Position numbers and translations under genes: made by a program. A model generated the notes under the pieces. The model ran no database searches. It saw only the letters and a program-made list of their open reading frames with translations, and was not told the origin of the DNA. From IMG/VR virus record IMGVR_UViG_3300033148_003903, positions 1-48,066 of that record: a stretch of 48,066 bases of DNA; one strand, written 5' to 3'. This document shows, one piece after another, positions 2,584-48,066 of the stretch; position 1 is the first letter of the stretch; each line of letters begins with the position of its first letter. Source of the stretch: a virus.

Positions 2584-2770
2584 AGAATACATATGCCCTG
2601 GATGCGAAACGGAATGGGATGATCCAGTAACTTGCCCTAACTGTGGATTCATTAGTTGTAAAACTTGCGGCGAAGAAGTTATGCTAACTGCCGATTATGA
2701 ACGCGACAAAGCAATTAACATGCGTGACGACGAGCTTGAAGAAAGGAGAAATAGTAATGGCCAAGGCTGA
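2576..2770 (+). CDS. Small zinc-ribbon protein
   Basis: The 64-residue product reads MAKEYICPGCETEWD, then CPNCG and CKTCG, giving six cysteines and probably one or two zinc sites. The tail is acidic and helical. The start overlaps the end of the previous gene through the duplicated ATGGCTAAA junction, and its own end overlaps the RecT start. No specific function can be assigned. Confidence 0.7.
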   Translation: MAKEYICPGCETEWDDPVTCPNCGFISCKTCGEEVMLTADYERDKAINMRDDELEERRNSNGQG

Positions 2771-3698
2771 AAAACCGGACACCCAAATCGTGAGGCGGTC
2801 AATTGAGGCAAATGGACGCGGGCTTGCGTTGCGCTCGATGGATGATATGTACCGCTTTTCGCAGTATGTTGCCGCAAGTGGGCTCGCACCGCGAAGTTTC
2901 GATACGCCTGAAAAAGTGATGATTGCCGTCCAGTCCGGAGCCGAGATGGGTATGACGCCTATGCGGTCCTTGGGCTCGATATGCGTTATCAACGGGCAGG
3001 CAAGACTTTACGGCGATGCCCCCTTAGCACTGGTGCGTCAGAGCGGGCTCATGGAATCTATTGTCGAGACGCTTGAGGGCGAAGGTGACGATCTTACTGC
3101 CGTCTGCGTTGTCAAGCGACGAGAAGATCCCGAATCCATCACAAGGCGGTTTTCGGTGAAAGATGCTATGCTTGCGAAATTATGGGCAAAGTCCGGGCCG
3201 TGGAGCATGTACCCTAAGCGTATGCTGCAAATGCGGGCTCGGTCGCTGGCCTTGCGGGATGTATTCCCCGACTGTTTTGCGGGGGCGACGATTGCCGAAG
3301 AATATGCCGGAGTGGAAGATGAAGAAACGGCGCCGAAAAGTGCCGCATTACTCACCGAGGACAAGCCTACGAAACAGGTCGATAGCACACAAGAGGATAT
3401 GGAGAATATGACGGAAGGCTGGACGCCGGAAGACTTGCCGGTCGATTTACCACCGGAGAAAACAAAGAAACAAAAGAAGGCAAAGGAAACAGTGACGGAA
3501 GCGGATGTACCCGATGCCAACGCAGGGGACGAGAGGAAACCGGATAAACCCGGCTGGCATTGCAATAGTTGCGGCAAGGATTTCTACGTACCGCTCAATG
3601 GCGAACAGTGCAGCAAGTGCCTACGCAAGGATTGTTTCGAGAAAATCGAGGAGCCTAAAGATGAAACTCACAAAGAAGAAACTGAAAACTCTGTGTGA
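2757..3698 (+). CDS. recT: RecT-like single-strand annealing protein with zinc tail
   Basis: The 313-residue product carries the RecT-type core: YVAASGLAPRSFDTPEK, GAEMGMTPMRSLGSI, INGQARLYGDAPLAL, and PKRMLQMRARSLALRD. Such proteins anneal complementary single strands in phage recombination. Residues of about 190-280 are a charged linker, and the C-terminus has an added zinc finger (WHCNSCGKDF then CSKC). ATG 2757 follows AAAGGAG. A RecE-like nuclease gene lies just downstream, which matches the usual exonuclease and annealase pair. The zinc tail could bind DNA or a partner. Confidence 0.85.
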   Translation: MAKAEKPDTQIVRRSIEANGRGLALRSMDDMYRFSQYVAASGLAPRSFDTPEKVMIAVQSGAEMGMTPMRSLGSICVINGQARLYGDAPLALVRQSGLMESIVETLEGEGDDLTAVCVVKRREDPESITRRFSVKDAMLAKLWAKSGPWSMYPKRMLQMRARSLALRDVFPDCFAGATIAEEYAGVEDEETAPKSAALLTEDKPTKQVDSTQEDMENMTEGWTPEDLPVDLPPEKTKKQKKAKETVTEADVPDANAGDERKPDKPGWHCNSCGKDFYVPLNGEQCSKCLRKDCFEKIEEPKDETHKEETENSV

Positions 3699-3780
3699 TG
3701 GCCTCCGAACCACGCATGAACGATGGCGGATAGAGGGCCTCGCATGGGCATTGAAGAAATTGAAGAAAGGGTACAAATGA
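3661..3780 (+). CDS. Small basic protein, 39 residues
   Basis: Starts MKLTKKKLKTLC behind GAGGAG, inside the 3' end of recT, and ends at 3780 in an ATGA overlap with the nuclease gene. It is lysine-rich and helical. Its main visible role may be to couple translation between recT and the nuclease gene; a DNA-binding helper is possible. Confidence 0.55.
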   Translation: MKLTKKKLKTLCDGLRTTHERWRIEGLAWALKKLKKGYK

Positions 3781-4616
3781 GACCTAAGCCGGGAATCTAT
3801 CCAGGTGTGCCGTTCCCTGAGTATCAGTCATGGGAAGCGATTAACAACAGCGTACTCCGCAAGATCAGTAAACAGAGTGCCGCACACGCTAAGGAATACA
3901 TGGACAACCCGCCGCCGCCTACAGCGGCAATGTCGTTCGGTTCGGCCTTACACGCAAGGATTTTGGAGTGCGATACATTTCCTGAGCGCTACCTCGTCGC
4001 CCCGAAATGCGATAGGCGGACGAAAGCGGGAAAAGAGACGTATGCAGCTTTCCAGGATGCCGCCGGCGACAAAACAATCCTGACGGATGCGGATTACGCG
4101 ACCATCCAGAGCATCGCAGCCGAGATCGAGAAGCACAAGGTTATAAAGTTCGTCCAAGACGGCGCTTCTGAGGTCTGTATCGTCTGGACAGACAAAAAGA
4201 CAGGTATTCTCTGTAAGGCCCGGCTTGACTACATCCACGCCGAACGGGCGATAATGGTCGATATTAAATCGACAAAAAGTGCCGAGGCCGGGGAATTCGC
4301 CCGATCAGTATGGAATTACGATTATCATCAGCAATTCGCCTTTTACGCCTCTGGATGGGAGGCGGCTGCTGGTGATTTCCCGACGTGCGTTATCGTCGCT
4401 TGCGAAAAAGAACCGCCGTTTGCCCTGGCAGTCTATGAACTCCACGAAGATATTATGAGAGCGGGCAAGAACGCTTGGGAGAACGCCCTAAAAATCTACG
4501 CCGAGTGCGTCAAAACGGGGATTTGGCCTGGATTCTATGATGGCCCACAGATATTGAACCTGCCGAAATGGGCTCTTGAAAAGGCTGGCGTCGGCCCTCA
4601 TAATTTAGATTTATAA
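3777..4616 (+). CDS. RecE-like PD-(D/E)XK exonuclease
   Basis: The 279-residue product has the N-terminal block GSALHARILECDTFPERY seen in YqaJ and RecE-type phage exonucleases and the catalytic core CKARLDYI followed by MVDIKSTKSA (D, then D-x-K), then YDYHQQFAFY. These enzymes resect double-stranded ends to make single strands for RecT. ATG 3777 is chosen because it overlaps the previous stop and gives the usual family start (GIYPGVPFPEY). The length fits the nuclease domain of exonuclease VIII rather than the full-length enzyme. Confidence 0.85.
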   Translation: MRPKPGIYPGVPFPEYQSWEAINNSVLRKISKQSAAHAKEYMDNPPPPTAAMSFGSALHARILECDTFPERYLVAPKCDRRTKAGKETYAAFQDAAGDKTILTDADYATIQSIAAEIEKHKVIKFVQDGASEVCIVWTDKKTGILCKARLDYIHAERAIMVDIKSTKSAEAGEFARSVWNYDYHQQFAFYASGWEAAAGDFPTCVIVACEKEPPFALAVYELHEDIMRAGKNAWENALKIYAECVKTGIWPGFYDGPQILNLPKWALEKAGVGPHNLDL

Positions 4617-10919: not shown

Positions 10920-12483
10920 CGCCGCCATGTGTTTAGAGGATAAGCAATGGCGGAAGAACAACCTCTATACAGTTGTCAATGAGGCTGGCGAGCGGGTTCC
11001 GTACCGACAAAGGCAAGTCCAAAAGACCCTTGATGAGGCACGGCACGGCTGCGATGTCATTCTCAAATCCCGACAACATGGAATCACGACCGAGGCTTGT
11101 ATTGATATGCTGGACGACTGCATGTTCATACCTGACCTTCAGTGCGGTATCGTCGCTCACACAAAGATCGACGCCCAAGAAATATTCCAAACTAAGATCA
11201 AAACGCCTTATGAGGCAATGCCCGAGTTTTTGCGGAAATGGAATCCGGCTATCAAATGTGATGGCGGGCACTTGAGGCTTGCCAACGGCTCGTCGATACG
11301 AGTAGCGGTGTCTTTCCGATCGGCCACGACTCACAGACTCCATATCTCGGAGTTGGGCAAGATTTGTGCGAAATATCCCAAGCGGGCAATTGAGATCAAG
11401 ACTGGGACGATGCCTTCAGTACACCCGCAGTTAGGTGGGCGAATAACGGTCGAGAGTACAGCCGAGGGTGCGGCGGGATTGTTTTATGACCTATGCACAC
11501 AATCTGAGGCTGAAACGGCACAGGCGAAGGCGGCGGGGCGTAAACTCAACCCACGGCAATACAAATTCCATTTCTTCGCCTGGTGGCAAGACCCAAAGAA
11601 CAGAGTGGAGCCGTTAGGTATTACGATAAGCGATGAGACCGGGCGATACTTGGACGGTTTAGCGGTTAAGGCTATCGAGTTAGATGCCGAGCAGCGGGCT
11701 TGGTATGCGATTACGAAGGACGGATCGAACGGCCTCGGCAAGGAAATGAAGCGGGAGCACCCAAGTACGGTGCAAGAGGCATTTGAGCAGTCTGTCCACG
11801 GTGCTGTATTTGGCGATGAGTTGGAATTGATGAGGAATGAAGGTAGAATCGGCTTTTATCCTTACGACCAGCGGATCAAAGTTTACACATTCTGGGACCT
11901 GGGTTATCGGGATGCAACGGCTGTGCTGTTCGTGCAGTTTATTCAAGACGAGATCAGGATAGTCGAGTGCTATCACATGGTTGGCCGGGGCGCTCCGTAC
12001 CATGCCGCACAGATATTAGGCAAGGACTACGGTTACGACCACGATCATCTATCTCATTACGGGCCGCACGATGTAATGAACCACGAAAAGGGTACTGGGA
12101 TTGTACTGAAAGATACGTATGGCAGTTTAGGTGTGAAATTCGGGGTCGTAGACCGGCCAAGGAGGAAGGTGGACGGCATACAGGCGATCCGGGACATATT
12201 GAATAAAGTTCGGATAAACGCTAAGGCTTGCCCGGCTCTAGTTAAGGCCCTGGCATTTTATAGATACGAATGGGACGAAGATGACGTACAGTTTAGTAAG
12301 GACCCCATTGACGACTGGACGAACGATGCGATTGATGCGCTGCAGACAATGGCCTTACAGTACCGTTTTGGCACTATCGGCGGTCGAAGGCTTGGCTACC
12401 CGATAGCCTTACCGGTATCGGGCGGGGATAGGGAGGAGCGGTTTCAATTTAGCTTTGATAGGCGGAAGGGCAGGCGAGTATGA
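10882..12483 (+). CDS. terL: Terminase large subunit
   Basis: The 533-residue packaging motor has an ATPase P-loop variant (LKSRQHGITT, residues about 61-70), a Walker-B-like HISELGK (about 154-160) and a nuclease domain beginning YTFWDLGYRDATA (about 335-347) and ending near DDWTNDAIDAL. TTG 10882 is chosen: GGAG lies seven bases before it and it gives a family-like N-terminus (ATIPRTKADAAMCLEDKQW). ATG 10927 is an alternative. The gene overlaps both neighbours. Confidence 0.93.
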   Translation: MVETATIPRTKADAAMCLEDKQWRKNNLYTVVNEAGERVPYRQRQVQKTLDEARHGCDVILKSRQHGITTEACIDMLDDCMFIPDLQCGIVAHTKIDAQEIFQTKIKTPYEAMPEFLRKWNPAIKCDGGHLRLANGSSIRVAVSFRSATTHRLHISELGKICAKYPKRAIEIKTGTMPSVHPQLGGRITVESTAEGAAGLFYDLCTQSEAETAQAKAAGRKLNPRQYKFHFFAWWQDPKNRVEPLGITISDETGRYLDGLAVKAIELDAEQRAWYAITKDGSNGLGKEMKREHPSTVQEAFEQSVHGAVFGDELELMRNEGRIGFYPYDQRIKVYTFWDLGYRDATAVLFVQFIQDEIRIVECYHMVGRGAPYHAAQILGKDYGYDHDHLSHYGPHDVMNHEKGTGIVLKDTYGSLGVKFGVVDRPRRKVDGIQAIRDILNKVRINAKACPALVKALAFYRYEWDEDDVQFSKDPIDDWTNDAIDALQTMALQYRFGTIGGRRLGYPIALPVSGGDREERFQFSFDRRKGRRV

Positions 12484-12819: not shown

Positions 12820-13002
12820 ATGGGCCAACTACGAATATATCCTCATAAAGCAAACGCGAGGGGTGATTGCGTGAAATGTGGCGATACTGTACGGTTCAAC
12901 CATTTTGGGCCATCAACTTGCCCGATTCCTGATGATGAAGACGAATTGAGATGTGCTGATGTGGCAGAAGAATTAAAAGACATTAGGATGGCAATCGAAT
13001 GA
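12820..13002 (+). CDS. Small zinc-ribbon-like protein
   Basis: The 60-residue product has GDCVKCGDTVRFNHFG and then CP, followed by an acidic helix. Clear AAGGAG ribosome site. Its stop overlaps the next gene. Function unknown. Confidence 0.55.
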   Translation: MGQLRIYPHKANARGDCVKCGDTVRFNHFGPSTCPIPDDEDELRCADVAEELKDIRMAIE

Positions 13003-13274
13003 AGGCTAACACCAAGTCCATTTTGATATTACTGATAGTGCCGGTGCTGTTCGTGCTGGTGATTGTCGGGTACGAGTTGAACGCCAGGGCCGCTGAGGCC
13101 CGGTACACAGACGCATACCACCAAGGCTACACCGCCGGCGAGTTGTTTGCGGTTCAGAAGATATTCGATTGCAATGATGCTGATATTATTTACTATAACG
13201 ACATTGATATTAGCTATTCCGACCCTAACGTGGACGTGATACGCTACAGTTTTGAAAAGGAGCCAACAGAATGA
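12999..13274 (+). CDS. Membrane-anchored small protein
   Basis: The 91-residue product has an N-terminal membrane helix or uncleaved signal (SILILLIVPVLFVLVIVG) and a periplasmic-facing acidic domain rich in Asp and Tyr. ATGA overlaps on both sides place it in the coupled run of tiny genes. Confidence 0.6.
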   Translation: MKANTKSILILLIVPVLFVLVIVGYELNARAAEARYTDAYHQGYTAGELFAVQKIFDCNDADIIYYNDIDISYSDPNVDVIRYSFEKEPTE

Positions 13275-13597
13275 AAACAAGTAAAGCGGTAGTATTATTG
13301 TTTGTATGTTTGGCGATATGCTTGATTGTGGGCTCGATGAGCAGCATGAGCGATGCTGGCTCGGCCCCGCGCGACATTGAGGCTGAAGTAGTGGCCCGGA
13401 CGATAGCCATGCTCCATGATCGCACAAGTGTCCTGGAGGACAACGCCAAGGTTCACGCTCAAGCCCTATTGGTTCAGCAACAGAAGATAGTTGCAATCGA
13501 GTCGGCAGTGGTTACACTATGGAAGTTGCACAACGATCCGAACCTGGGCCATTACGACCCGAATGAGGTGAAGGACGCTAATGAGGTGAAGAAATGA
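13271..13597 (+). CDS. Secreted or membrane coiled-coil protein with EVK tail
   Basis: The 108-residue product has a signal or membrane helix (VVLLFVCLAICLIVG), then a helical region with QALLVQQQKIVAIESAV. The size and layout recall inner-membrane spanins, but no partner is evident. The last residues are DPNEVKDANEVKK, two copies of the 18-base repeat that also supplies the next gene's ribosome site. Confidence 0.6.
   Translation: MKTSKAVVLLFVCLAICLIVGSMSSMSDAGSAPRDIEAEVVARTIAMLHDRTSVLEDNAKVHAQALLVQQQKIVAIESAVVTLWKLHNDPNLGHYDPNEVKDANEVKK
13556..13591 (+). repeat. EVK cassette: two 18-bp units
   Basis: GACCCGAATGAGGTGAAG (13556-13573) and GACGCTAATGAGGTGAAG (13574-13591) differ at three bases. 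They encode DPNEVK and DANEVK, and GAGGTGAAG followed by AAATGA gives the SD and start of the next gene. Confidence 0.85.
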
Positions 13598-13755
13598 CGC
13601 CTTGGTATGGCAAAGACGATGGTAAAGAGTTCGCACATTGCCCAGGTTGCGAAATCTGCGAGGAGCGGGAGCGGCGTGAACGGCGTGAACGCGAGCGAAT
13701 AAGTGCCGAGGTAAAGGACGCCAATGAGGTAAAGGATGCTAATAGCACAAGCTGA
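13594..13755 (+). CDS. Small Cys and Arg/Glu-rich protein with EVK tail
   Basis: The 53-residue product reads MTPWYGKDDGKEFAHC, has CPGCEIC and an RERRERRERER stretch, then AEVKDANEVKDANSTS. The start overlaps the preceding stop (ATGA). The EVK repeat occurs near its end but is followed by an extra STS, because the next gene begins inside the repeat in another frame. Confidence 0.55.
   Translation: MTPWYGKDDGKEFAHCPGCEICEERERRERRERERISAEVKDANEVKDANSTS
13705..13743 (+). repeat. EVK cassette: second cluster
   Basis: Encodes A-EVK-DAN-EVK-DAN in the frame of the 13594 gene. GAGGTAAAGG at 13726-13735 is the ribosome site for ATG 13736, which opens in a different frame. Confidence 0.8.
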
Positions 13756-13963
13756 ATATGCAGAGGTGCGAATAGAAGAATATGACGATGCTTTCCGTGA
13801 TACGCCAGGCATTTGCTGGCGCATGTTGGAATATCAGGCCCTTGAGGTTATTCATGTGATTACGAAAATAGTGATAACATTCAAGGTAGACTCGAACGGT
13901 CGTCAAATACGAGTATTTACATTTAAGGGTATTGCAAAGGATGCCAACGAGGCGAAGGAATGA
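13736..13963 (+). CDS. Hypothetical protein with EAK tail
   Basis: The 75-residue product starts MLIAQAEYAEVRIEEY, has a beta-like core (VITFKVDSNGRQIRVFTF) and ends AKDANEAKE. It starts within the EVK repeat of the previous gene, six bases after GAGG, and its own tail is a diverged copy (GATGCCAACGAGGCGAAGGA). Confidence 0.55.
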   Translation: MLIAQAEYAEVRIEEYDDAFRDTPGICWRMLEYQALEVIHVITKIVITFKVDSNGRQIRVFTFKGIAKDANEAKE

Positions 13964-14115
13964 CCGACGAGGATTGGGATATATACATCGCATCTCTTAA
14001 TGCACCGGAAGCGTGTGGTGCTTGTTCGTGCTGGTTTGATAATAAGTGCCGTTGCCTGGGACGTTGTGACAAAAAGCCCAACGAGGTAAAGGACGCCAAT
14101 GAGGTGAAGGAATGA
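13960..14115 (+). CDS. Small cysteine-rich protein with EVK tail
   Basis: The 51-residue product reads MTDEDWDIYIASLNAPE, then CGACSCWF, CRCLGRC and finally PNEVKDANEVKE. Seven cysteines suggest a small metal-binding protein. ATGA overlaps at both ends. Confidence 0.55.
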   Translation: MTDEDWDIYIASLNAPEACGACSCWFDNKCRCLGRCDKKPNEVKDANEVKE

Positions 14116-14255
14116 CTTGCGGCAATTGTCAAGAGGAGTTAGATACAACTGGCGTCGAATTCGGCGGTGAGTTAAAATGCTCAGCGTGTGGTAAAATAAA
14201 TGATTTGGCGTATGATACGGTTGTTGGATTGTATGTTGATGAGGTGAAGAAATGA
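14112..14255 (+). CDS. Small zinc-ribbon protein with EVK tail
   Basis: The 47-residue product reads MTCGNCQEEL, then KCSACGKIND and ends DEVKK. Two CxxC pairs make a classic zinc ribbon. The tail is a shortened EVK unit that forms the next ribosome site. Confidence 0.6.
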   Translation: MTCGNCQEELDTTGVEFGGELKCSACGKINDLAYDTVVGLYVDEVKK

Positions 14256-14404
14256 CGACATGGGGATTTGGTGTATTTATATTATCAGTTCTTGTATTTA
14301 TAGTGGCGGTTATTTCTACATGGATGAGCGGCTATTACTGGGGCAGACGAATTGAAAGGAATATTGCGATAGAGATAGATGAGGCCGATGAGGTGAAGGA
14401 ATGA
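14252..14404 (+). CDS. Small membrane protein with EVK tail
   Basis: The 50-residue product has one membrane helix (FGVFILSVLVFIVAVIS), then YYWGRRIERN and ends EADEVKE. ATGA overlaps on both sides. Confidence 0.6.
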   Translation: MTTWGFGVFILSVLVFIVAVISTWMSGYYWGRRIERNIAIEIDEADEVKE

Positions 14405-14652
14405 ATCGACGGACACTACTCAAGAGTTTAGCTACTCTGCCTTTCGTAGGCGGGTTATTTGGTGGTAAGGAGAAGGAAACTGAGAAGAATCTATTCTCGA
14501 TTGAGGAAGGGGAAACATTGGACGTCTGGTTGGAAGTCTCTGATGCAGATGAGTTTGTAGGCCCATTAGCGGCTATGAGACGTGCAGAAGGTTTTGATAA
14601 GTGGTTTGGTCGTGAGGTGTTTAGAATATTAAACAAAGTGAGTAATTTATGA
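14401..14652 (+). CDS. Hypothetical protein with Tat-like signal
   Basis: The 83-residue product starts MNRRTLLKSLATLPFVGG: a twin-arginine pair with LLK, a moderately hydrophobic stretch and glycine, as in a Tat signal peptide. The mature part is acidic (IEEGETLDVWLEVSDADEF). It is the last gene in the EVK-coupled run and itself lacks the tail. Tat signals in phage proteins are rare; it could be a chance N-terminus. Confidence 0.55.
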   Translation: MNRRTLLKSLATLPFVGGLFGGKEKETEKNLFSIEEGETLDVWLEVSDADEFVGPLAAMRRAEGFDKWFGREVFRILNKVSNL

Positions 14653-14655
14653 CAT

Positions 14656-14762
14656 AACCCCAAAAGACGGGCACGGCCGGGTAGCTCCCGGTTAGATGCC
14701 GGAAACCATCGAGCCTGACCGGGGGCCGCAGGGTAACACCTGCGGTCTTTTTCTTTTGGGTT
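14656..14762 (+). promoter_or_regulatory. Switch-like attenuator before the portal operon
   Basis: AACCCCAAAAGA (14656-14667) pairs with TCTTTTGGGTT (14752-14762) with one bulge. Inside, CCGGG (14677-14681) can pair with CCCGG (14687-14691), but CCCGGT (14687-14692) can instead pair with ACCGGG (14718-14723). A terminator hairpin CCGCAGG/CCTGCGG (14726-14745) with TCTTTTTC follows. The exclusive pairings plus terminator suggest conformational control. Confidence 0.5.
14726..14752 (+). terminator. Intrinsic terminator
   Basis: CCGCAGG, loop gtaaca, CCTGCGG, then TCTTTTT. Part of the larger fold at 14656-14762. Confidence 0.75.
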
Positions 14763-14772
14763 GGAGAATAGA

Positions 14773-14952
14773 ATGTTACTAAATGACCGTAAAATGTGGC
14801 CTGGCGGCTTAGGGCAGTTGAAGGCGAATACTTACCGCAACTACCCGCACCAGTTCGAGAGCTGGCGAGCTGCAAAAGAAGAATATCCGCAATGCCGGAA
14901 GTGTGGCCGGTCGCTATTGAGTGTTTCAAGGACAGGAATAGGATGCAAATAG
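14773..14952 (+). CDS. Small protein with C-terminal zinc knuckle
   Basis: The 59-residue product starts at ATG 14773, eight bases after GGAG, and has QCRKCGRSLLS with another cysteine at the end (GIGCK). Unknown function; first gene behind the attenuator and ahead of the portal. Confidence 0.55.
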   Translation: MLLNDRKMWPGGLGQLKANTYRNYPHQFESWRAAKEEYPQCRKCGRSLLSVSRTGIGCK

Positions 14953-14953
14953 C

Positions 14954-15181
14954 ATGATAAAGCGTTTTACTCAGACATCAGTAAACGATGAAGGTTGGCC
15001 CAGCTTAGGCCGCGAAGAATCCTCATTGCGTAATATCAATTGTGCTATGAAAGTGCAGGGGTTTAGTCCCTCACGGCCTCCGCGTATTATCCGAAGCAAG
15101 GAATTCCGTACAGATCGCAATGGTACGCGATATCCCGTTGAAATAGTTGAAGTGAGTATGGTTGGGAGAAGCATAGCATGA
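14954..15181 (+). CDS. Hypothetical protein, 75 residues
   Basis: Starts MIKRFTQTSVNDEGW one base after the previous stop and overlaps the next start by ATGA. Basic, with a probable beta hairpin (RNGTRYPVEIVEVSM). Not recognised. Confidence 0.5.
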   Translation: MIKRFTQTSVNDEGWPSLGREESSLRNINCAMKVQGFSPSRPPRIIRSKEFRTDRNGTRYPVEIVEVSMVGRSIA

Positions 15182-15447
15182 AGCTAAAAGGCAGACATCG
15201 CCCAGTACAGACGCAGCACAAGGGCAATACGGTCGATATTGTTCCGACCGGCCTGAAGTTTCGGGGCTGTATGATTGCTGTATTGGTTCCACAGTCTTCG
15301 CTTCACAACCCATTAGAGATAGCTCAGGCATACGTCAAGGGGACGAATGAGTGCGTTAAGAAGGCCAAAGAGGTGAGCGTGCGGGATATGGTCCTGGTAC
15401 AGGTTGAGGCGGCCAAAAAACTACAGGAGCAAATGGATGGGAACTAG
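15178..15447 (+). CDS. Hypothetical protein, 89 residues
   Basis: Starts MKLKGRHRPVQTQHKG, has a hydrophobic strand (GCMIAVLVPQSS) and a C-terminal helix with AAKKLQEQM. It overlaps the portal start by 11 bases and supplies its ribosome site. Unknown role. Confidence 0.55.
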   Translation: MKLKGRHRPVQTQHKGNTVDIVPTGLKFRGCMIAVLVPQSSLHNPLEIAQAYVKGTNECVKKAKEVSVRDMVLVQVEAAKKLQEQMDGN

Positions 15448-23332: not shown

Positions 23333-26300
23333 ATGAAAAAGCTGATACTGGCAATAATATTGGCGGTTACAGTCCCGGTGTACGCAGGTCCGGCCCGGAC
23401 TCTCCGTGATTCACGGGCTCTGCACTTCACGAATACCGTTACTACGCTCACGGCAGGTGACGCGACGCCCTCGGTGCTGAATCGCTTTATCGTAAAGACG
23501 GCGAATACGAGTTCGACGACTATTACCGACTTCGACGACGGCAGTACCGGCCAGCCGCTCTGGCTGATTATCGGCGACGGCGATACGACTATCGATTTCA
23601 GTAGTACGAACCTCAAGGGCAACGGCGGGGCCGACTATTCGGCGACGGAGAACGATTTATGGCTGTTCGTTTACGACGGCACATACTGGTACGGCTCGTA
23701 TCTCGGCGCTATAATCACGCACGAACAAGGGGGCCTGGAGGCGGACGTGAGCGGCTATTCGGGGCTGCTGGCTATTTCGGGCGGGTCAACGTCGGAGGTG
23801 GACGCCCTAAGCGAACTGAACGCCCAGATAGCCGATGTGACGACGTTTGTGGTCGAGAGTACGGCATGTTCCAATATCGAGGGTACTGGCCTGGCGATTA
23901 CGGCCGGCACGCTCAACTGGACAGCCGCCTCGACGGATCTGTCCGATACAGCGGCCCTGCTCTACGAAACCGAGCTTGACGACTTCTCCGAACTCCAGAC
24001 GCAGATCGGTAATAAGACATTAGTGAATGAGGAGGACGCAGTAGGATGGGACGCTCTGAACACGTTTAATCTTGGCGTTACTATTACGACCGGCGACCCG
24101 TTCACGTTGGGCACAACGCGCTGGGACGACGGCTCCGATAAGATGAACGGCGAGTACATTGCCGACAATACGATAGACAATGACAGTATCGACTGGGCCG
24201 ATATGACGGATTTAACGACGGACGGTGCGGTATCGTGGGGCAATTTAGGCTCAGGCGAGCTTGCGAACGGCATGGTAGTCTTGGCCGACATTGCTTCGGC
24301 GGCCTACGCCAAAGACTTAGTAACTACCTCGCCGGTTACGGGCGGAACGAATAATATCTTAGTTGGGGCCGAAGGCGATGTAACCGTAGCCCTTGATTTT
24401 ACAACGGCCTGGACGTGGACGGGCAACTGCATTGCCAACGGCAACCTGTCGGTCGGCAATGGCACGACGACGGCGGGGGTGTTGACGCTGCTCGAAGATG
24501 ACAACGACGGCTCTAATTTTGCATCGTTCATGGTCCCCGCTCTTGGGGCCAATACGGTCTATACCTTACCGCCCGATGATGGCGATAACGGCGAGCAGTT
24601 GCAGACCAACGGCTCCGGCACTTTAACGTGGGAGGCGGCGGCAAGTTCGAGCGGTGGCGACAGCTTCACATTCACAGACGAAGATGCTGCGCCTGATGCT
24701 GCCGGAATGTTGAAATATGATAACACCGTTGCTAATTGGGACGATGGCGCTTTGTGCTGGTACGACGACGACGAAGTAAAGTATCTTGTAGATTTAGCGA
24801 CTCTACCGACGGATGACGACTATGTAGTCGCCTACGACGCCGACATCGACAAATTCTACATGAAGGTCGATGATGATACGGGCGGAAATACCGCATACGA
24901 CGATATAGGCGATCCCGACGCCGCAGGCTCTATCAGTTTCGACGACAATGAAACGGCCACTTACGCTTTCGCTCAGGACTCGGCGGGAACCTGTTTTCTT
25001 ATCGAAAATACGGATGCAACGGTGAGCAATATCGTCTATCTTCTGGAGCTTCAACATTCCGACGACGGTGAGACCAAAGCCGATTTCTTCAAGTGTACCG
25101 ATAATAACGGCGATGTAAAGTTCAATATCCAAGAGGAGGGTAATACGAGTATCGACGGATTCCTGAGCGTTGGCGTGGACTCTCATCATACAATCAACGT
25201 CAACGCAGTGACTAAAGAGATTCAGTTCGGGATTCACGGCGACGATGTAGCGAACGAATACGTGAGCTATTTCGACAGGGCCTCGGACACGCACTCGCCG
25301 ACGATGATTATTGCCAGGGCGCACGGCACGCACGCTGTGCCAACGGTAGTGGCCGACGATAGCATGTTGGGCCAGATAGGTATGATGGGTTGGGACGGTG
25401 TTGATATGGCGTTTGGGGCAAGGTTCTTCGCCCGCGTACACGGCACGCCCGGCCCGAACGATATGCCGACCGAGCTTGTTATGGCGGTAGCCGCCGACGG
25501 GGCTTCTACGGCAACGGAGCAGGTAACGCTTTACGACGGTGTTTTCGGCCCGATTACTACTAACGATATTGATTTAGGGACGTCCAGCCTTCAGTTCAAG
25601 GACGGCTATTTCGACGGCACGGTCTATACCGATGACCTGACTGTAGGGGCCTCAGCGGCAATGTCAGAAGTTGATATGGAGAAGCTGGACGGCATTACCA
25701 ACGGCACGGCTGCGGCGAGCAAGGCCGTTATTCTCGACGCCAGTAAGAACATTGCCACTATCGGTACGATAGGCTGTAGCACAATAACAACGTCCGGCAA
25801 CCCGCACATTGACGGTTCTGACCCGTCCATAGAGTTCGACGAGACAGACGGGACAGACTGGGAGCTTCGCGTTGACGATACCGGCAACAGTTTTGAGATA
25901 GCGTCGTCGATAGCCGCTGTAGGCGATAACGTCGAATTGGAGATAGACGAGGACGGCGATATTCACGTAACCGGCGACGTTTACGTAACCGGCGACGACT
26001 TGTTTATGAATACGAATACCGACAAATTCATACTGGTTGCCGACGGTACAAACTTCAATCCGGTCGAGAGCACTGGGGACGTCATTATAGACAATACCGG
26101 GGCGGCGACTATTCAGCCAGGCTCGATAGACCAGGCCCACTTTGCAGTTGATGTTATCGGCGTTGACGAGATGGAGGACGTTGACCACGGAGCGGTCGTA
26201 TGGAGCGGTGGGGTAGCAAAAGTACAGACTATCCTGATTACTGACAATGAGAGCACCGACGAGAACAATGTTATCCTCTTTGCAGCCAATGCGGACGAGG

Positions 26301-27529
26301 ACGGTAATGATGTAGGCGAAATCGAATCAGACGGCACTCTTTACTACAATCCGAACTCAGGGACGGTATTTACTACGGAGTTCTCCGGGGGCGGTGCGGG
26401 TCTAACGGCGATAGACGGTGGGAATATCACCAATGATACGATAGACAATAATAGTATCGACTGGGCCGATATGACGGATTTAACGACGGACGGCGCGGTA
26501 TCGTGGGGCAATATAGCCGAAGGCGAATTAGCTGACGCTATTATCGTCGATGCCGATATTAAGGACAATGTGATTCAGGAACCGGCCTTGAATACGACAA
26601 ACGCTGCCGGTGCGGGCGAGGATAATTACGTTCTCAGCTACAATCACGCCGGTACGAACTTCACTTGGATAGCTGCCGGGGCTGGTGATATGCTCAAGGC
26701 TACCTACGATTCAGGTGTCTCAGGCGGCGTCGATATGCTTACGACGGTCGATAGCACCTACGCCAGCGACTACGTTCTCCTGACGGGAACGGCGGTGGGA
26801 ACGGCGGCCCCCAAGACAGACGGGGCCCTGACATACGACGCTACGAGCGGCACGCTGGCCGCTACGGAGTTCTCAGGCGGCGGCTCCGGCCTGACCCTTG
26901 CCTCTACCGATTTGAGCGATACAGCGGCCCTGCTCTACGAAACCGAACTTGACGACCTCTCGGAGTTGACTACTCAGATAGCTGACGTTTCGACGTTCAT
27001 AACCGACGATATTATGCCGGACGCCGGGACTGACCCTACTGTTAACGCTGCCGGTGAGTTGTCCGTGGATACGGATGGGGCAAATGAAGCGAATGATGTA
27101 ACTTTACGCACATTTGAAGGCAATAGAGAAATGGCTTTAGCTCAGGCCCTAAAAACAATCACTATGTCTATTGTCAGTCCCGATGAGATAAATGTATGGA
27201 CTGGACGAGTCAACCCCAGTCAGCCCGTATGGTTTAATACGAGCGGTATGGCATTTACGATTACGGAAGTCTATGCGATTTCAGACACGGACAATTATGA
27301 CTTTACATTGTTTGAGTCGTCATCGGCGACTGATATGTCCGATGACAACGATACTTCAATTATAGCCATCCAGTGTGACGCCGACGGCACGGAATGTTTC
27401 ACCGATTCAGAGACGGGTATCAACCATATAATTGAACATGACCACGCAATAATCTTTGAGGATACACTCGGTTCAGCCGAAGGTATTCTCATAACAATAT
27501 CAGGTTGGTTTAACGCAGACGTAAATTAA
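23333..27529 (+). CDS. Giant signal-peptide-bearing fibre-like protein
   Basis: The 1398-residue product begins MKKLILAIILAVTVPVYAG, a clear Sec signal. The body is an Asp, Thr and Gly-rich fibre with internal duplications. SIDWADMTDLTTDGAVSWGN occurs twice (DNA 24168-24244 and 26436-26512, almost identical), as does DTAALLYETELDD (about 23946 and 26920). A C-terminal domain (about residues 1255-1398) is different and probably globular. It is likely the major virion appendage; receptor binding is possible but not shown. Confidence 0.7.
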   Translation: MKKLILAIILAVTVPVYAGPARTLRDSRALHFTNTVTTLTAGDATPSVLNRFIVKTANTSSTTITDFDDGSTGQPLWLIIGDGDTTIDFSSTNLKGNGGADYSATENDLWLFVYDGTYWYGSYLGAIITHEQGGLEADVSGYSGLLAISGGSTSEVDALSELNAQIADVTTFVVESTACSNIEGTGLAITAGTLNWTAASTDLSDTAALLYETELDDFSELQTQIGNKTLVNEEDAVGWDALNTFNLGVTITTGDPFTLGTTRWDDGSDKMNGEYIADNTIDNDSIDWADMTDLTTDGAVSWGNLGSGELANGMVVLADIASAAYAKDLVTTSPVTGGTNNILVGAEGDVTVALDFTTAWTWTGNCIANGNLSVGNGTTTAGVLTLLEDDNDGSNFASFMVPALGANTVYTLPPDDGDNGEQLQTNGSGTLTWEAAASSSGGDSFTFTDEDAAPDAAGMLKYDNTVANWDDGALCWYDDDEVKYLVDLATLPTDDDYVVAYDADIDKFYMKVDDDTGGNTAYDDIGDPDAAGSISFDDNETATYAFAQDSAGTCFLIENTDATVSNIVYLLELQHSDDGETKADFFKCTDNNGDVKFNIQEEGNTSIDGFLSVGVDSHHTINVNAVTKEIQFGIHGDDVANEYVSYFDRASDTHSPTMIIARAHGTHAVPTVVADDSMLGQIGMMGWDGVDMAFGARFFARVHGTPGPNDMPTELVMAVAADGASTATEQVTLYDGVFGPITTNDIDLGTSSLQFKDGYFDGTVYTDDLTVGASAAMSEVDMEKLDGITNGTAAASKAVILDASKNIATIGTIGCSTITTSGNPHIDGSDPSIEFDETDGTDWELRVDDTGNSFEIASSIAAVGDNVELEIDEDGDIHVTGDVYVTGDDLFMNTNTDKFILVADGTNFNPVESTGDVIIDNTGAATIQPGSIDQAHFAVDVIGVDEMEDVDHGAVVWSGGVAKVQTILITDNESTDENNVILFAANADEDGNDVGEIESDGTLYYNPNSGTVFTTEFSGGGAGLTAIDGGNITNDTIDNNSIDWADMTDLTTDGAVSWGNIAEGELADAIIVDADIKDNVIQEPALNTTNAAGAGEDNYVLSYNHAGTNFTWIAAGAGDMLKATYDSGVSGGVDMLTTVDSTYASDYVLLTGTAVGTAAPKTDGALTYDATSGTLAATEFSGGGSGLTLASTDLSDTAALLYETELDDLSELTTQIADVSTFITDDIMPDAGTDPTVNAAGELSVDTDGANEANDVTLRTFEGNREMALAQALKTITMSIVSPDEINVWTGRVNPSQPVWFNTSGMAFTITEVYAISDTDNYDFTLFESSSATDMSDDNDTSIIAIQCDADGTECFTDSETGINHIIEHDHAIIFEDTLGSAEGILITISGWFNADVN
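24168..24244 (+). repeat. 77-bp internal duplication, copy 1
   Basis: Nearly identical to 26436-26512, with only a few mismatches, within the same large fibre gene. It suggests recent domain duplication or gene conversion. Confidence 0.8.
26436..26512 (+). repeat. 77-bp internal duplication, copy 2
   Basis: Pairs with 24168-24244. Both encode the stretch around SIDWADMTDLTTDGAVSWGN. Confidence 0.8.
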
Positions 27530-43031: not shown

Positions 43032-43253
43032 ATGAACATAATGGGTTGGATAGCAATGATTGACCTCTTTTTCAGACTGTGGCCTGCCATTAAGGAAATC
43101 CTCGGAGCGATTACCGACGTCAGCGAAAAAGTAGCGATGGAAGCGAAGATTTGGGAAATATTCAATACAGCCCCCAATCCCGTCGTTCTTATGACTACGC
43201 TGAGCGAAGAAATTGACAGTTGGGACGAGGCTTACCAGAAGACAGTCGCCTAA
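43032..43253 (+). CDS. Small protein with amphipathic N-terminus
   Basis: The 73-residue product starts MNIMGWIAMIDLFFRLW, followed by a hydrophilic helical body. It may insert in the membrane as a holin or pinholin, or act with the downstream phospholipase-like protein. AAAGGAG precedes the start; the stop overlaps the next ATG. Confidence 0.5.
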   Translation: MNIMGWIAMIDLFFRLWPAIKEILGAITDVSEKVAMEAKIWEIFNTAPNPVVLMTTLSEEIDSWDEAYQKTVA

Positions 43254-43972
43254 TGGCACAAGTCGATGTCCATTTTTCGATGACTTTCGCCGTCGCTCAA
43301 CGGGCGGGCCGCAAAGATGCCAAGATCATCGCGTTCAGTAACTACCAGACGGATAAGCACAAGCCGACTTTTGGCTCTCATACCCAAGTTAATGGACTAT
43401 CGTGGATGTGGTCATGGGCCGGGGTGTATTTCCATTTTACGCCAGGTGATATTATCAGGACGCCGCTGGTAACGACGGCCAATAACAGGTGCGTCCAGGC
43501 CCTCGTCGAAAAGGCCACGAATCCATTTGAGTTAGGACTTGCCCTGCACACCCTTCAAGACTCATTCAACCACCAGAATTTCTCAGGCCGGACTAATAAA
43601 ATCAATTCCTGTTTCACTGAGAAGGCATGGTATCGCCGCCTAATCCCGGACTACGGCCACTCTGATATGATGACAATGCCCGATATTACCACGGCCCAGT
43701 GGTTCGACCCTCGAATCGAGCAGAATATCAGCAATATCCATCGCACCCAGCTTTCAATTATAGCGACGGGAAAGGCCCTGGGGCTTGATTTGAGCGTGCC
43801 CGATGATTTGTTCCACCCGGTAACGGTAGATCAGCGAGAGCGGCGTATGAGGCTGTGGTCGGGGTCGCTGCGGTTCGAGGACATCGCGGAGCCGTTCTGG
43901 AGGAAATATCGCAAGGAATGGCTGGCCGCCGCCCGGCGTCAGGTCGAGATTGTCAAGACTTTCCTTTCGTGA
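43253..43972 (+). CDS. Zinc phospholipase C-like (DUF6765-like) protein
   Basis: The 239-residue product has VDVHFSMTFAVAQRAG, a D and H pair near residue 34-36 (YQTDKHK) and the signature LALHTLQDSFNHQNFSG (H99, D103, H107). This is the H-x3-D-x3-H pattern of zinc phospholipase C and S1/P1-nuclease folds and recalls DUF6765. No signal peptide is present. Its position after the tailspike with its own promoter suggests a role in lysis by attacking membrane lipids; a nuclease role is possible. It overlaps the convergent minus-strand gene by 20 bases. Confidence 0.6.
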   Translation: MAQVDVHFSMTFAVAQRAGRKDAKIIAFSNYQTDKHKPTFGSHTQVNGLSWMWSWAGVYFHFTPGDIIRTPLVTTANNRCVQALVEKATNPFELGLALHTLQDSFNHQNFSGRTNKINSCFTEKAWYRRLIPDYGHSDMMTMPDITTAQWFDPRIEQNISNIHRTQLSIIATGKALGLDLSVPDDLFHPVTVDQRERRMRLWSGSLRFEDIAEPFWRKYRKEWLAAARRQVEIVKTFLS

Positions 43973-45615: not shown

Positions 45616-45633
45616 GTATTACCTTTGTTCTTA

Positions 45634-45653
45634 CTCCTTTGGTGGGGTTAGGG
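45634..45653 (-). repeat. 20-bp junction repeat, copy 1
   Basis: ctcctttggtggggttaggg, identical to 46289-46308. On the minus strand it supplies CCACCAAAGGAG, a strong SD for the next gene. Confidence 0.85.
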
Positions 45654-45668
45654 CTTGCTCAAGCCATA

Positions 45669-46280
45669 TTAGTCAAAATCTCTACACTTGATTTTTGTGA
45701 TAATACGCTCACCTGCACGACTTTTGAGTTCTACGGCTGGGCGCAAAACAATTCCTTCGGCACGAAATTTTCCCCAGTGAGAGTCAAAACCATCTTGAAC
45801 CATATCGACAGCAGTTTTTAGTGTTCCGTGTCCTATCGTTGGCACAATGTCTATGCCAAGAACCAGTGCTACATCCCTAACGGTATCACGCTTTAGCCAC
45901 CACTCGCCAACGAGAACATCAAATAGGACGAAATCCACGCCGCCCTTTTGGATTTTCGCACTGTAACCTTCGCCGTAAAGCGTTAGTGAATCCGTTTCCG
46001 GATGAATTGCAGCATCCATTTTATCTAAAGGAAACAGTTGTTCGAGCCGTTCAATCAATCGTGCGGGTATGTTTGCATTGTCCGTGCGCCCACCAAATTT
46101 GCGATATTCACCACGTTGCCATTCGACTCGAATATTCGTGCCGTCCACTTTTTCCGTGAATTCCCATTCGTTCCCGGCAAGATAGCCTATTTCGGGGGTA
46201 GCGAATACCAGAGGCATAATCTTGCCCTTATTCGTCATGTCTCGCTTGAATATCGTTTGGATTTTCGGGTATTTTCTCAT
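45669..46280 (-). CDS. RNA ligase (Rnl2-like nucleotidyltransferase)
   Basis: The 203-residue product has the ligase motif I FTEKVDGTNIRVEW (catalytic Lys44), then LYGEGYSAKIQKGG, EGIVLRP and ITKIKCRDFD, as in T4 Rnl2-type RNA ligases. The enzyme seals 3'-OH and 5'-phosphate RNA ends. ATG 46280 is preferred to 46286 because AAAGGAG is nine bases away. No polynucleotide kinase gene is visible, so repair of nuclease-cut tRNA would need the host or another enzyme. Confidence 0.8.
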   Translation of the reverse strand: MRKYPKIQTIFKRDMTNKGKIMPLVFATPEIGYLAGNEWEFTEKVDGTNIRVEWQRGEYRKFGGRTDNANIPARLIERLEQLFPLDKMDAAIHPETDSLTLYGEGYSAKIQKGGVDFVLFDVLVGEWWLKRDTVRDVALVLGIDIVPTIGHGTLKTAVDMVQDGFDSHWGKFRAEGIVLRPAVELKSRAGERIITKIKCRDFD

Positions 46281-46288
46281 TGTCATTG

Positions 46289-46308
46289 CTCCTTTGGTGG
46301 GGTTAGGG
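46289..46308 (-). repeat. 20-bp junction repeat, copy 2
   Basis: Exact copy of 45634-45653, here carrying the stop of the 46303-46512 gene and the ribosome site for the RNA ligase. Confidence 0.85.
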
Positions 46309-47702: not shown

Positions 47703-48066
47703 TCTGGGACAAGCCGACACCGCAATTGGCCTTTTTTGTGTAGAAGTAAAACACGGCAATGAGTGAGTTTGGTAATATTGAGAATCTCAACCAAAGGAAA
47801 ACCGTAAATATTACGCCACTGAGGTTTAGGCCAACGGAGAATGCTCTTGTGAACTTGGCTACGGGTACTTTTATGAACTTGGCTGCGGTTACTTTTATGG
47901 ATATGGCTATGACAAGACTGGCACAACAATTGAAGGTTGTCAATATTATGGTTATCTTTAGTCCCGTCGATATGATGAACTACGCGCCCCTTGTTTGGAC
48001 AAAGTTGGCATTCGCCATTGGCTTCTGCTATTACAATTAGACGTGCTTTCTTCAAAATGTGATGAT
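47696..48066 (-). CDS. HNH endonuclease, main part (continues from base 130)
   Basis: An HNH homing-type nuclease with CQLC, KGRVVHHIDGTKD, NIDNLQLLCQSCHSH (treble-clef zinc and HNH active site). After the core comes HKSNRSQV, HKSTRSQV, HKS: an 8-residue tandem repeat. Through the terminal repeat it joins the part at 1-130, so the full protein is about 128 residues. It is a probable mobile intruder. Confidence 0.85.
   Translation of the reverse strand, partial: HHILKKARLIVIAEANGECQLCPNKGRVVHHIDGTKDNHNIDNLQLLCQSCHSHIHKSNRSQVHKSTRSQVHKSILRWPKPQWRNIYGFPLVEILNITKLTHCRVLLLHKKGQLRCRLVPDY
47851..47898 (+). repeat. 24-bp tandem repeat in the HNH gene
   Basis: Two near-identical 24-base units (47851-47874, 47875-47898), with the beginning of a third. 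On the minus strand they encode the repeated HKSxRSQV. Confidence 0.8.
47953..48066. repeat. Right copy of 114-bp direct terminal repeat
   Basis: Identical to 1-114. See the left copy. Confidence 0.95.

Follow-up and report, generated by a model that had tools for sequence, protein, structure and literature searches.

The window, the whole stretch of 48,066 bp that was analysed, is the entire record of an uncultured bacterial virus. It carries exact direct repeats of 114 bp at its ends (1–114 and 47953–48066), and it is therefore probably a complete genome. A terminase large subunit (TerL), a podophage-type head-tail connector (phrog_332) and a podophage-related major head protein place it among the podophages. 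No close counterpart was found among phage records, where identity reaches at most 38% for TerL and about 33% for the head protein. L179, the best viral contig found, has a TerL that is 62% identical, and a search of viral contigs with the portal protein as query gave no match. The genome encodes a RecT-like protein (22.7 bits, slightly under the Pfam cut-off of 24) and a RecE-like nuclease. A long tail-fibre-like ORF at 23333–27529 contains internal repeats of 151 nt (79%) and 80 nt (81%), and the right arm encodes a DUF6765 protein (43220–43972) and a protein with a Pfam RNA_ligase domain (45669–46286, minus strand).

TerL ends at 12483 and the portal gene starts at about 15437, leaving a gap of 2.95 kb that holds a run of small genes. 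Six consecutive tiny genes occupy 13271–14404 (Table 1). When coding was scored over six frames, frame 0 was best in five of the six and a close second for the gene starting at 13594; these ORFs look coding, not all of them strongly scored. Nothing firm was found for the small proteins in Pfam, PHROGs, PADLOC, phage records or viral contigs, and in the compared loci the array and its flanking genes have no relatives except one borderline zinc-ribbon match. A DNA search of 13000–15400 against phage records also gave no match. Just past the gene run, 14659–14760 is predicted to form a strong multi-branched fold with a terminator-like hairpin at its end (-53.3 kcal/mol, z -3.2); the same stretch matches Rfam BjrC68 weakly (22.8 bits, below the cut-off of 39).

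Table 1. Genes of the coupled run, copies of the repeat unit and recombination genes; tails are the residues before the stop codon
Feature	Position	Strand	Description
Small gene 1	13271..13597	+	108 aa, N-terminal hydrophobic segment; tail DPNEVKDANEVKK
Small gene 2	13594..13755	+	53 aa, CxxC, Arg/Glu-rich; tail SAEVKDANEVKDANSTS, no EVK end
Small gene 3	13736..13963	+	75 aa; tail KDANEAKE
Small gene 4	13960..14115	+	51 aa, Cys-rich; tail KPNEVKDANEVKE
Small gene 5	14112..14255	+	47 aa, zinc-ribbon-like (under cut-off); tail YVDEVKK
Small gene 6	14252..14404	+	50 aa, one hydrophobic segment; tail EADEVKE
Last gene of coupled run	14401..14652	+	83 aa; starts on a unit, own end without unit
Two tandem 18-nt units	13556..13591	+	Second unit gives putative SD GAGGTGA for start 13594
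Unit and degenerate next unit	13717..13743	+	Putative SD GAGGTA, then ATG (13736) arising inside GGATGCTAAT
Unit GATGCCAACGAGGCGAAG	13940..13957	+	Weaker putative SD GAGG for start 13960
Two tandem units	14074..14109	+	Dimer homologous to 13556–13591; putative SD for 14112
Degenerate unit TATGTTGATGAGGTGAAG	14232..14249	+	Putative SD for 14252
Unit GAGGCCGATGAGGTGAAG	14381..14398	+	Putative SD for 14401
RecT-like and RecE-like DUF3799 nuclease genes	2754..4613	+	Possible recombination machinery

The gene tails and their probable ribosome-site part

The tails of these genes contain copies of an 18-nt unit, GAYGCYAATGAGGTRAAG, which is read in frame as DANEVK, lies on one strand only and is absent from the rest of the genome. 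A search with GACGCCAATGAGGTGAAG allowing up to three mismatches finds six occurrences, all within 13556–14398 on the plus strand, against 0.02 expected. Repeat finding in the window groups a 40-nt block into a family of six copies. The 24-mer GACGCCAATGAGGTGAAGGAATGA has a single exact occurrence, at 14092–14115, and no two copies share an exact stretch of more than 19 bp (13581–13599 versus 14239–14257).

The preliminary description counted five genes ending in (DAN)EVK(E/K) and a sixth ending in DANEAKE. The repeat is real, but the count needs amending: four of the six array genes end in EVK(E/K), one in DANEAKE and one in neither. The last is small gene 2, in which EVKDANEVK precedes a DANSTS tail. 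A full DAN stands immediately ahead of the final EVK in two genes only; the tails of genes 1 and 4 each hold two tandem units, while genes 5 and 6 end in eroded copies.

At five junctions the stop and start codons overlap as ATGA, with a Shine–Dalgarno (SD) match inside the upstream gene. At the sixth, start 13736, the overlap is 20 nt, and the ATG lies within a third, degenerate unit (GAGGTAAAGG-ATG-CTAAT). The sequence GAGGTGA, 7 nt complementary to the 16S tail, stands 4 nt before the ATG at four starts, and weaker matches precede starts 13960 (GAGGCG) and 13736 (GAGGTA). The five ATGA junctions and the SD match support what had been proposed, with each tail also being the likely ribosome site for the coupled gene that follows.

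Much of the resemblance between the tails follows from this arrangement. Because the ATGA overlap fixes the reading frame and the spacing of GAGGTGA is itself fixed, translation of the SD necessarily gives E-V-K-(E/K)-stop. When IMG/VR was scanned for pairs of EVKE-type ATGA junctions spaced 140–170 bp, it yielded three unrelated contigs (L094, L095 and L096) in which consecutive coupled small genes end in EVKE and share no further sequence. The EVK(E/K) core by itself is thus ordinary and convergent, and it is no proof of copying; ordinary ATGA coupling with an SD in the upstream gene explains it fully, GAGGTGAARRAATGA included. Such coupling brings neither tandem units nor any resemblance outside the SD, unlike the window. 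In annotation, short EVKE tails of coupled genes can accordingly be a by-product of the SD and not a sign of protein homology.

Similarity beyond the ribosome site

The DAN part had been said to extend beyond what an SD needs, and this stands in part. Nine of ten bases in AATGAGGTGA agree with the anti-SD partner AAGGAGGTGA, and AAT may thus belong to an extended SD; neither GAYGCY nor the upstream tandem units can. The excess was evaluated against a codon-sampling null in which the SD was held fixed and codons for the 9 nt before GAG were taken from each gene's own body. Three pairs of junctions agree within two mismatches (P ~2.5e-5), and 58 matches were counted against a mean of 24.

The tandem units point the same way. 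The blocks at 13559–13600 and 14077–14118 are identical at 35 of 42 bases, where the best match outside the family reaches 24, and both encode (D/K)PNEVK-DANEVK; a 36-base two-unit block is thus common to two junctions. The proline of the first unit is present in both, and the dimer was therefore probably copied whole. Across 171 loci, identity of at least 17/24 upstream of ATGA was found in pairs from the window only: seven such pairs reach 17–21/24, whereas convergent EVKE pairs reach at most 16/24. A wider survey compared 29 bases at 4383 overlapping junctions from 274 loci (25,852 same-locus pairs). The top pairs again lie in the window (26 and 22/29), followed by one in L180 (21), with the pairs of all other loci at 19 or below. 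These comparisons support the earlier proposal that the tail was copied as a block, as opposed to having evolved separately at each junction. That SD constraint at ATGA junctions made the tails alike with no copying at all is very unlikely; it accounts for the core seen in the three unrelated contigs, but leaves DAN and the tandem units unexplained.

It is also highly improbable that the six genes descend from one ancestor by tandem duplication, their bodies having diverged while the SD preserved the tail. Several of them are alike in size and spacing, but 36 protein comparisons of the bodies showed no similarity (the lowest shuffle P being 0.09), and their strongest DNA match rests on a 13-nt stretch.

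The encoded peptide may have a role of its own. Differences between units fall at third codon positions in 13 of 21 cases (P ~0.007), and in 11 of 18 for the DAN part alone (P ~0.014), in a small sample of copies that are not independent. This excess hints that the amino acids may also matter. In the strongest form of such a model, DANEVKE would be a functional C-terminal tag, serving solubility, stability or a shared partner, with the SD overlap secondary. The tail is acidic, hydrophilic and C-terminal every time, and the third-position excess holds for DAN by itself. Apart from the size and non-independence of the sample, however, the tail is eroded in genes 2, 5 and 6, and it ends where ATGA-coupled starts end, as the SD predicts; the tag is quite improbable.

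We consider the unit likely to be a translated start-associated sequence, one which supplies the SD for coupled starts and was copied as a block. The GAGGTRAAG part would serve as the SD for the next gene of the run: a ribosome would terminate each tiny protein on the TGA within ATGA, then restart at the overlapping ATG. A block of ~18–40 bp, comprising tail, SD and overlapping stop and start, would have been copied to several junctions and then diverged. Such copying while small genes accumulated between terL and portal would have left the DAN codons and the tandem units. The tandem units may have arisen by slippage, and dispersal may have occurred by recombination or template switching, with the RecT/RecE-like pair a plausible candidate route. 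SD use and coupling, together with the order and route of copying, are what we infer from the sequence. Some features count against this translated start-associated sequence: the SDs of starts 13960 and 13736 are weaker, GAYGCY has no role under a pure ribosome-site model, and the third-position excess hints at a part for the amino acids. The way in which phages assemble their runs of tiny genes is largely unexplained, and a repeat combining tail and ribosome site would show how an added small gene is expressed at once.

Two further properties of the repeat were noted. The sequence AATGAGGTGA or AATGAGGTAA occurs at 13562, 13580, 13723 and 14098, and units with AAT GAG GTG/GTA hold an out-of-frame minigene, ATG-AGG-TGA/TAA, which tandem units place behind an upstream SD; the minigene is probably a by-product. 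A hairpin role was rejected, the predicted folds of the junctions being weak and unlike one another.

Relatives and the proposed exchange of small genes

The preliminary description went further and proposed a mobile linker cassette, in which the units would be recombination sites for gaining, losing or swapping small genes with coupling intact. Several features are consistent with this: all junctions of the run have a unit, in a single register, precisely three genes (~518 bp) lie between the two-unit blocks, the genome has RecT-like and RecE-like genes, and the TerL–portal gap is 0.3–1.4 kb in the closest relatives against 2.95 kb here. Rad52-like phage recombinases, moreover, tolerate divergence (PMC3945230).

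The comparative search that had been called for gave no support to the cassette. Scanning IMG/VR and 84,980 prokaryote genomes for exact or degenerate forms of the unit returned nothing relevant, and a unit combined with a different gene set was found in no relative. Matches to the 24-mer in L177 and L178 have no coupled genes around them and were dismissed as chance. Five relatives (L014, L015, L017, L179 and L180, with TerL 49–62% identical) lack the array genes, units and tails. The array is therefore lineage-specific among the genomes seen, and these relatives are uninformative on cassette exchange. The length of identity between copies also falls short. The minimal pairing segment for Red-beta is quoted as 23–27 bp (PMC3945230), and the 19 bp shared here is below the identity needed for efficient annealing. 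Present-day exchange would consequently be inefficient, and any exchange would belong mostly to the past, when the copies were younger. Exchange through a mobile cassette is unlikely.

Start-associated repeats in other phages and in this group

The nearest described counterparts of the unit are the Start-Associated Sequences (SAS/ESAS) of Cluster K mycobacteriophages (PMC3203893) and Cluster EF Microbacterium phages (PMC7302621). As presented in the portions of these reports used here, an SAS is a short asymmetric repeat that lies at the ribosome-binding sites of a number of unrelated genes within one phage genome, is conserved past the need for SD pairing and is missing from most other phages. 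The unit likewise lies at the ribosome sites of several different genes and is conserved beyond SD pairing. The same portions describe SAS as sitting just upstream of starts in 10–19 copies per genome, with the extended parts in EF phages in non-coding gaps (PMC3203893, PMC7302621). The unit, in contrast, is translated as part of the end of the gene before it and is limited to one gene run. Tandem units are present here, and none is reported for SAS in those portions; the published consensus, GGGATAGGAGCCC or GGGAAAGGACCCC, is not matched by the unit (PMC3203893, PMC7302621). SAS are conserved across a cluster of related phages; the nearest relatives found for the window share only 49–62% TerL identity, and the unit is absent from them.

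Cluster EC Microbacterium phages such as Quhwah, which have an 18-bp start-proximal motif, offer a second parallel. According to the relevant part of the report, Quhwah has this motif, 17 small genes between terminase and portal, and a RecET-like system (PMC7302621). Placement of the repeats among small genes between terminase and portal, and the RecET-like genes, are common to Quhwah and the window. The Quhwah motif differs from the unit in sequence, and in that part of the report it is intergenic and untranslated, situated 21–30 bp before the start codons and ahead of the ribosome site (PMC7302621). A literature search on translated start-associated repeats found no papers. The ribosome-site part of the unit is ordinary; its copying as a block is unusual.

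A comparable case occurs in L180, whose TerL is 54% identical. Two consecutive coupled genes (79–378 and 375–554) end in EQALNPKESK and EQALNPGEPK, and the tail repeat, 33 nt at 82% identity, spans SD and ATGA but shares no sequence with the DANEVK unit. A tandem FREIAE repeat adjoins the EQALNP tails within L180:79–554. In L014 (TerL 53%), at 711–1423 on the minus strand, a four-copy repeat, TTATTGAAGGGAATTGAAAATG at best, precedes small minus-strand ORFs.

The window itself contains a non-coding leader, CGGCGGCGGT..TTGAGGTGATATAATG, ahead of three left-arm genes (415–445, 1108–1138 and 1591–1621). The second and third copies are 90% and 68% identical to the first, and the leader has the same SD, TTGAGGTGATATAATG, as the translated unit. 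It is a second, untranslated start-associated repeat of the same genome. The L180 tails, the L014 repeat and this leader together indicate that repeated start regions recur in the group with differing sequences, and the repeats in gene tails would be their translated form. An extension of this idea, which we regard as doubtful, is that a self-contained translated junction element acts as a reusable linker for adding or swapping tiny genes, with both peptide and ribosome site under selection and with relatives using sequences of their own, such as EQALNP in L180. A 29-nt repeat, CCCTAACCCCACCAAAGGAG, 90% identical between its two copies at 45625–45653 and 46280–46308 on the minus strand, lies near two minus-strand gene starts and is a possible third start-associated repeat.
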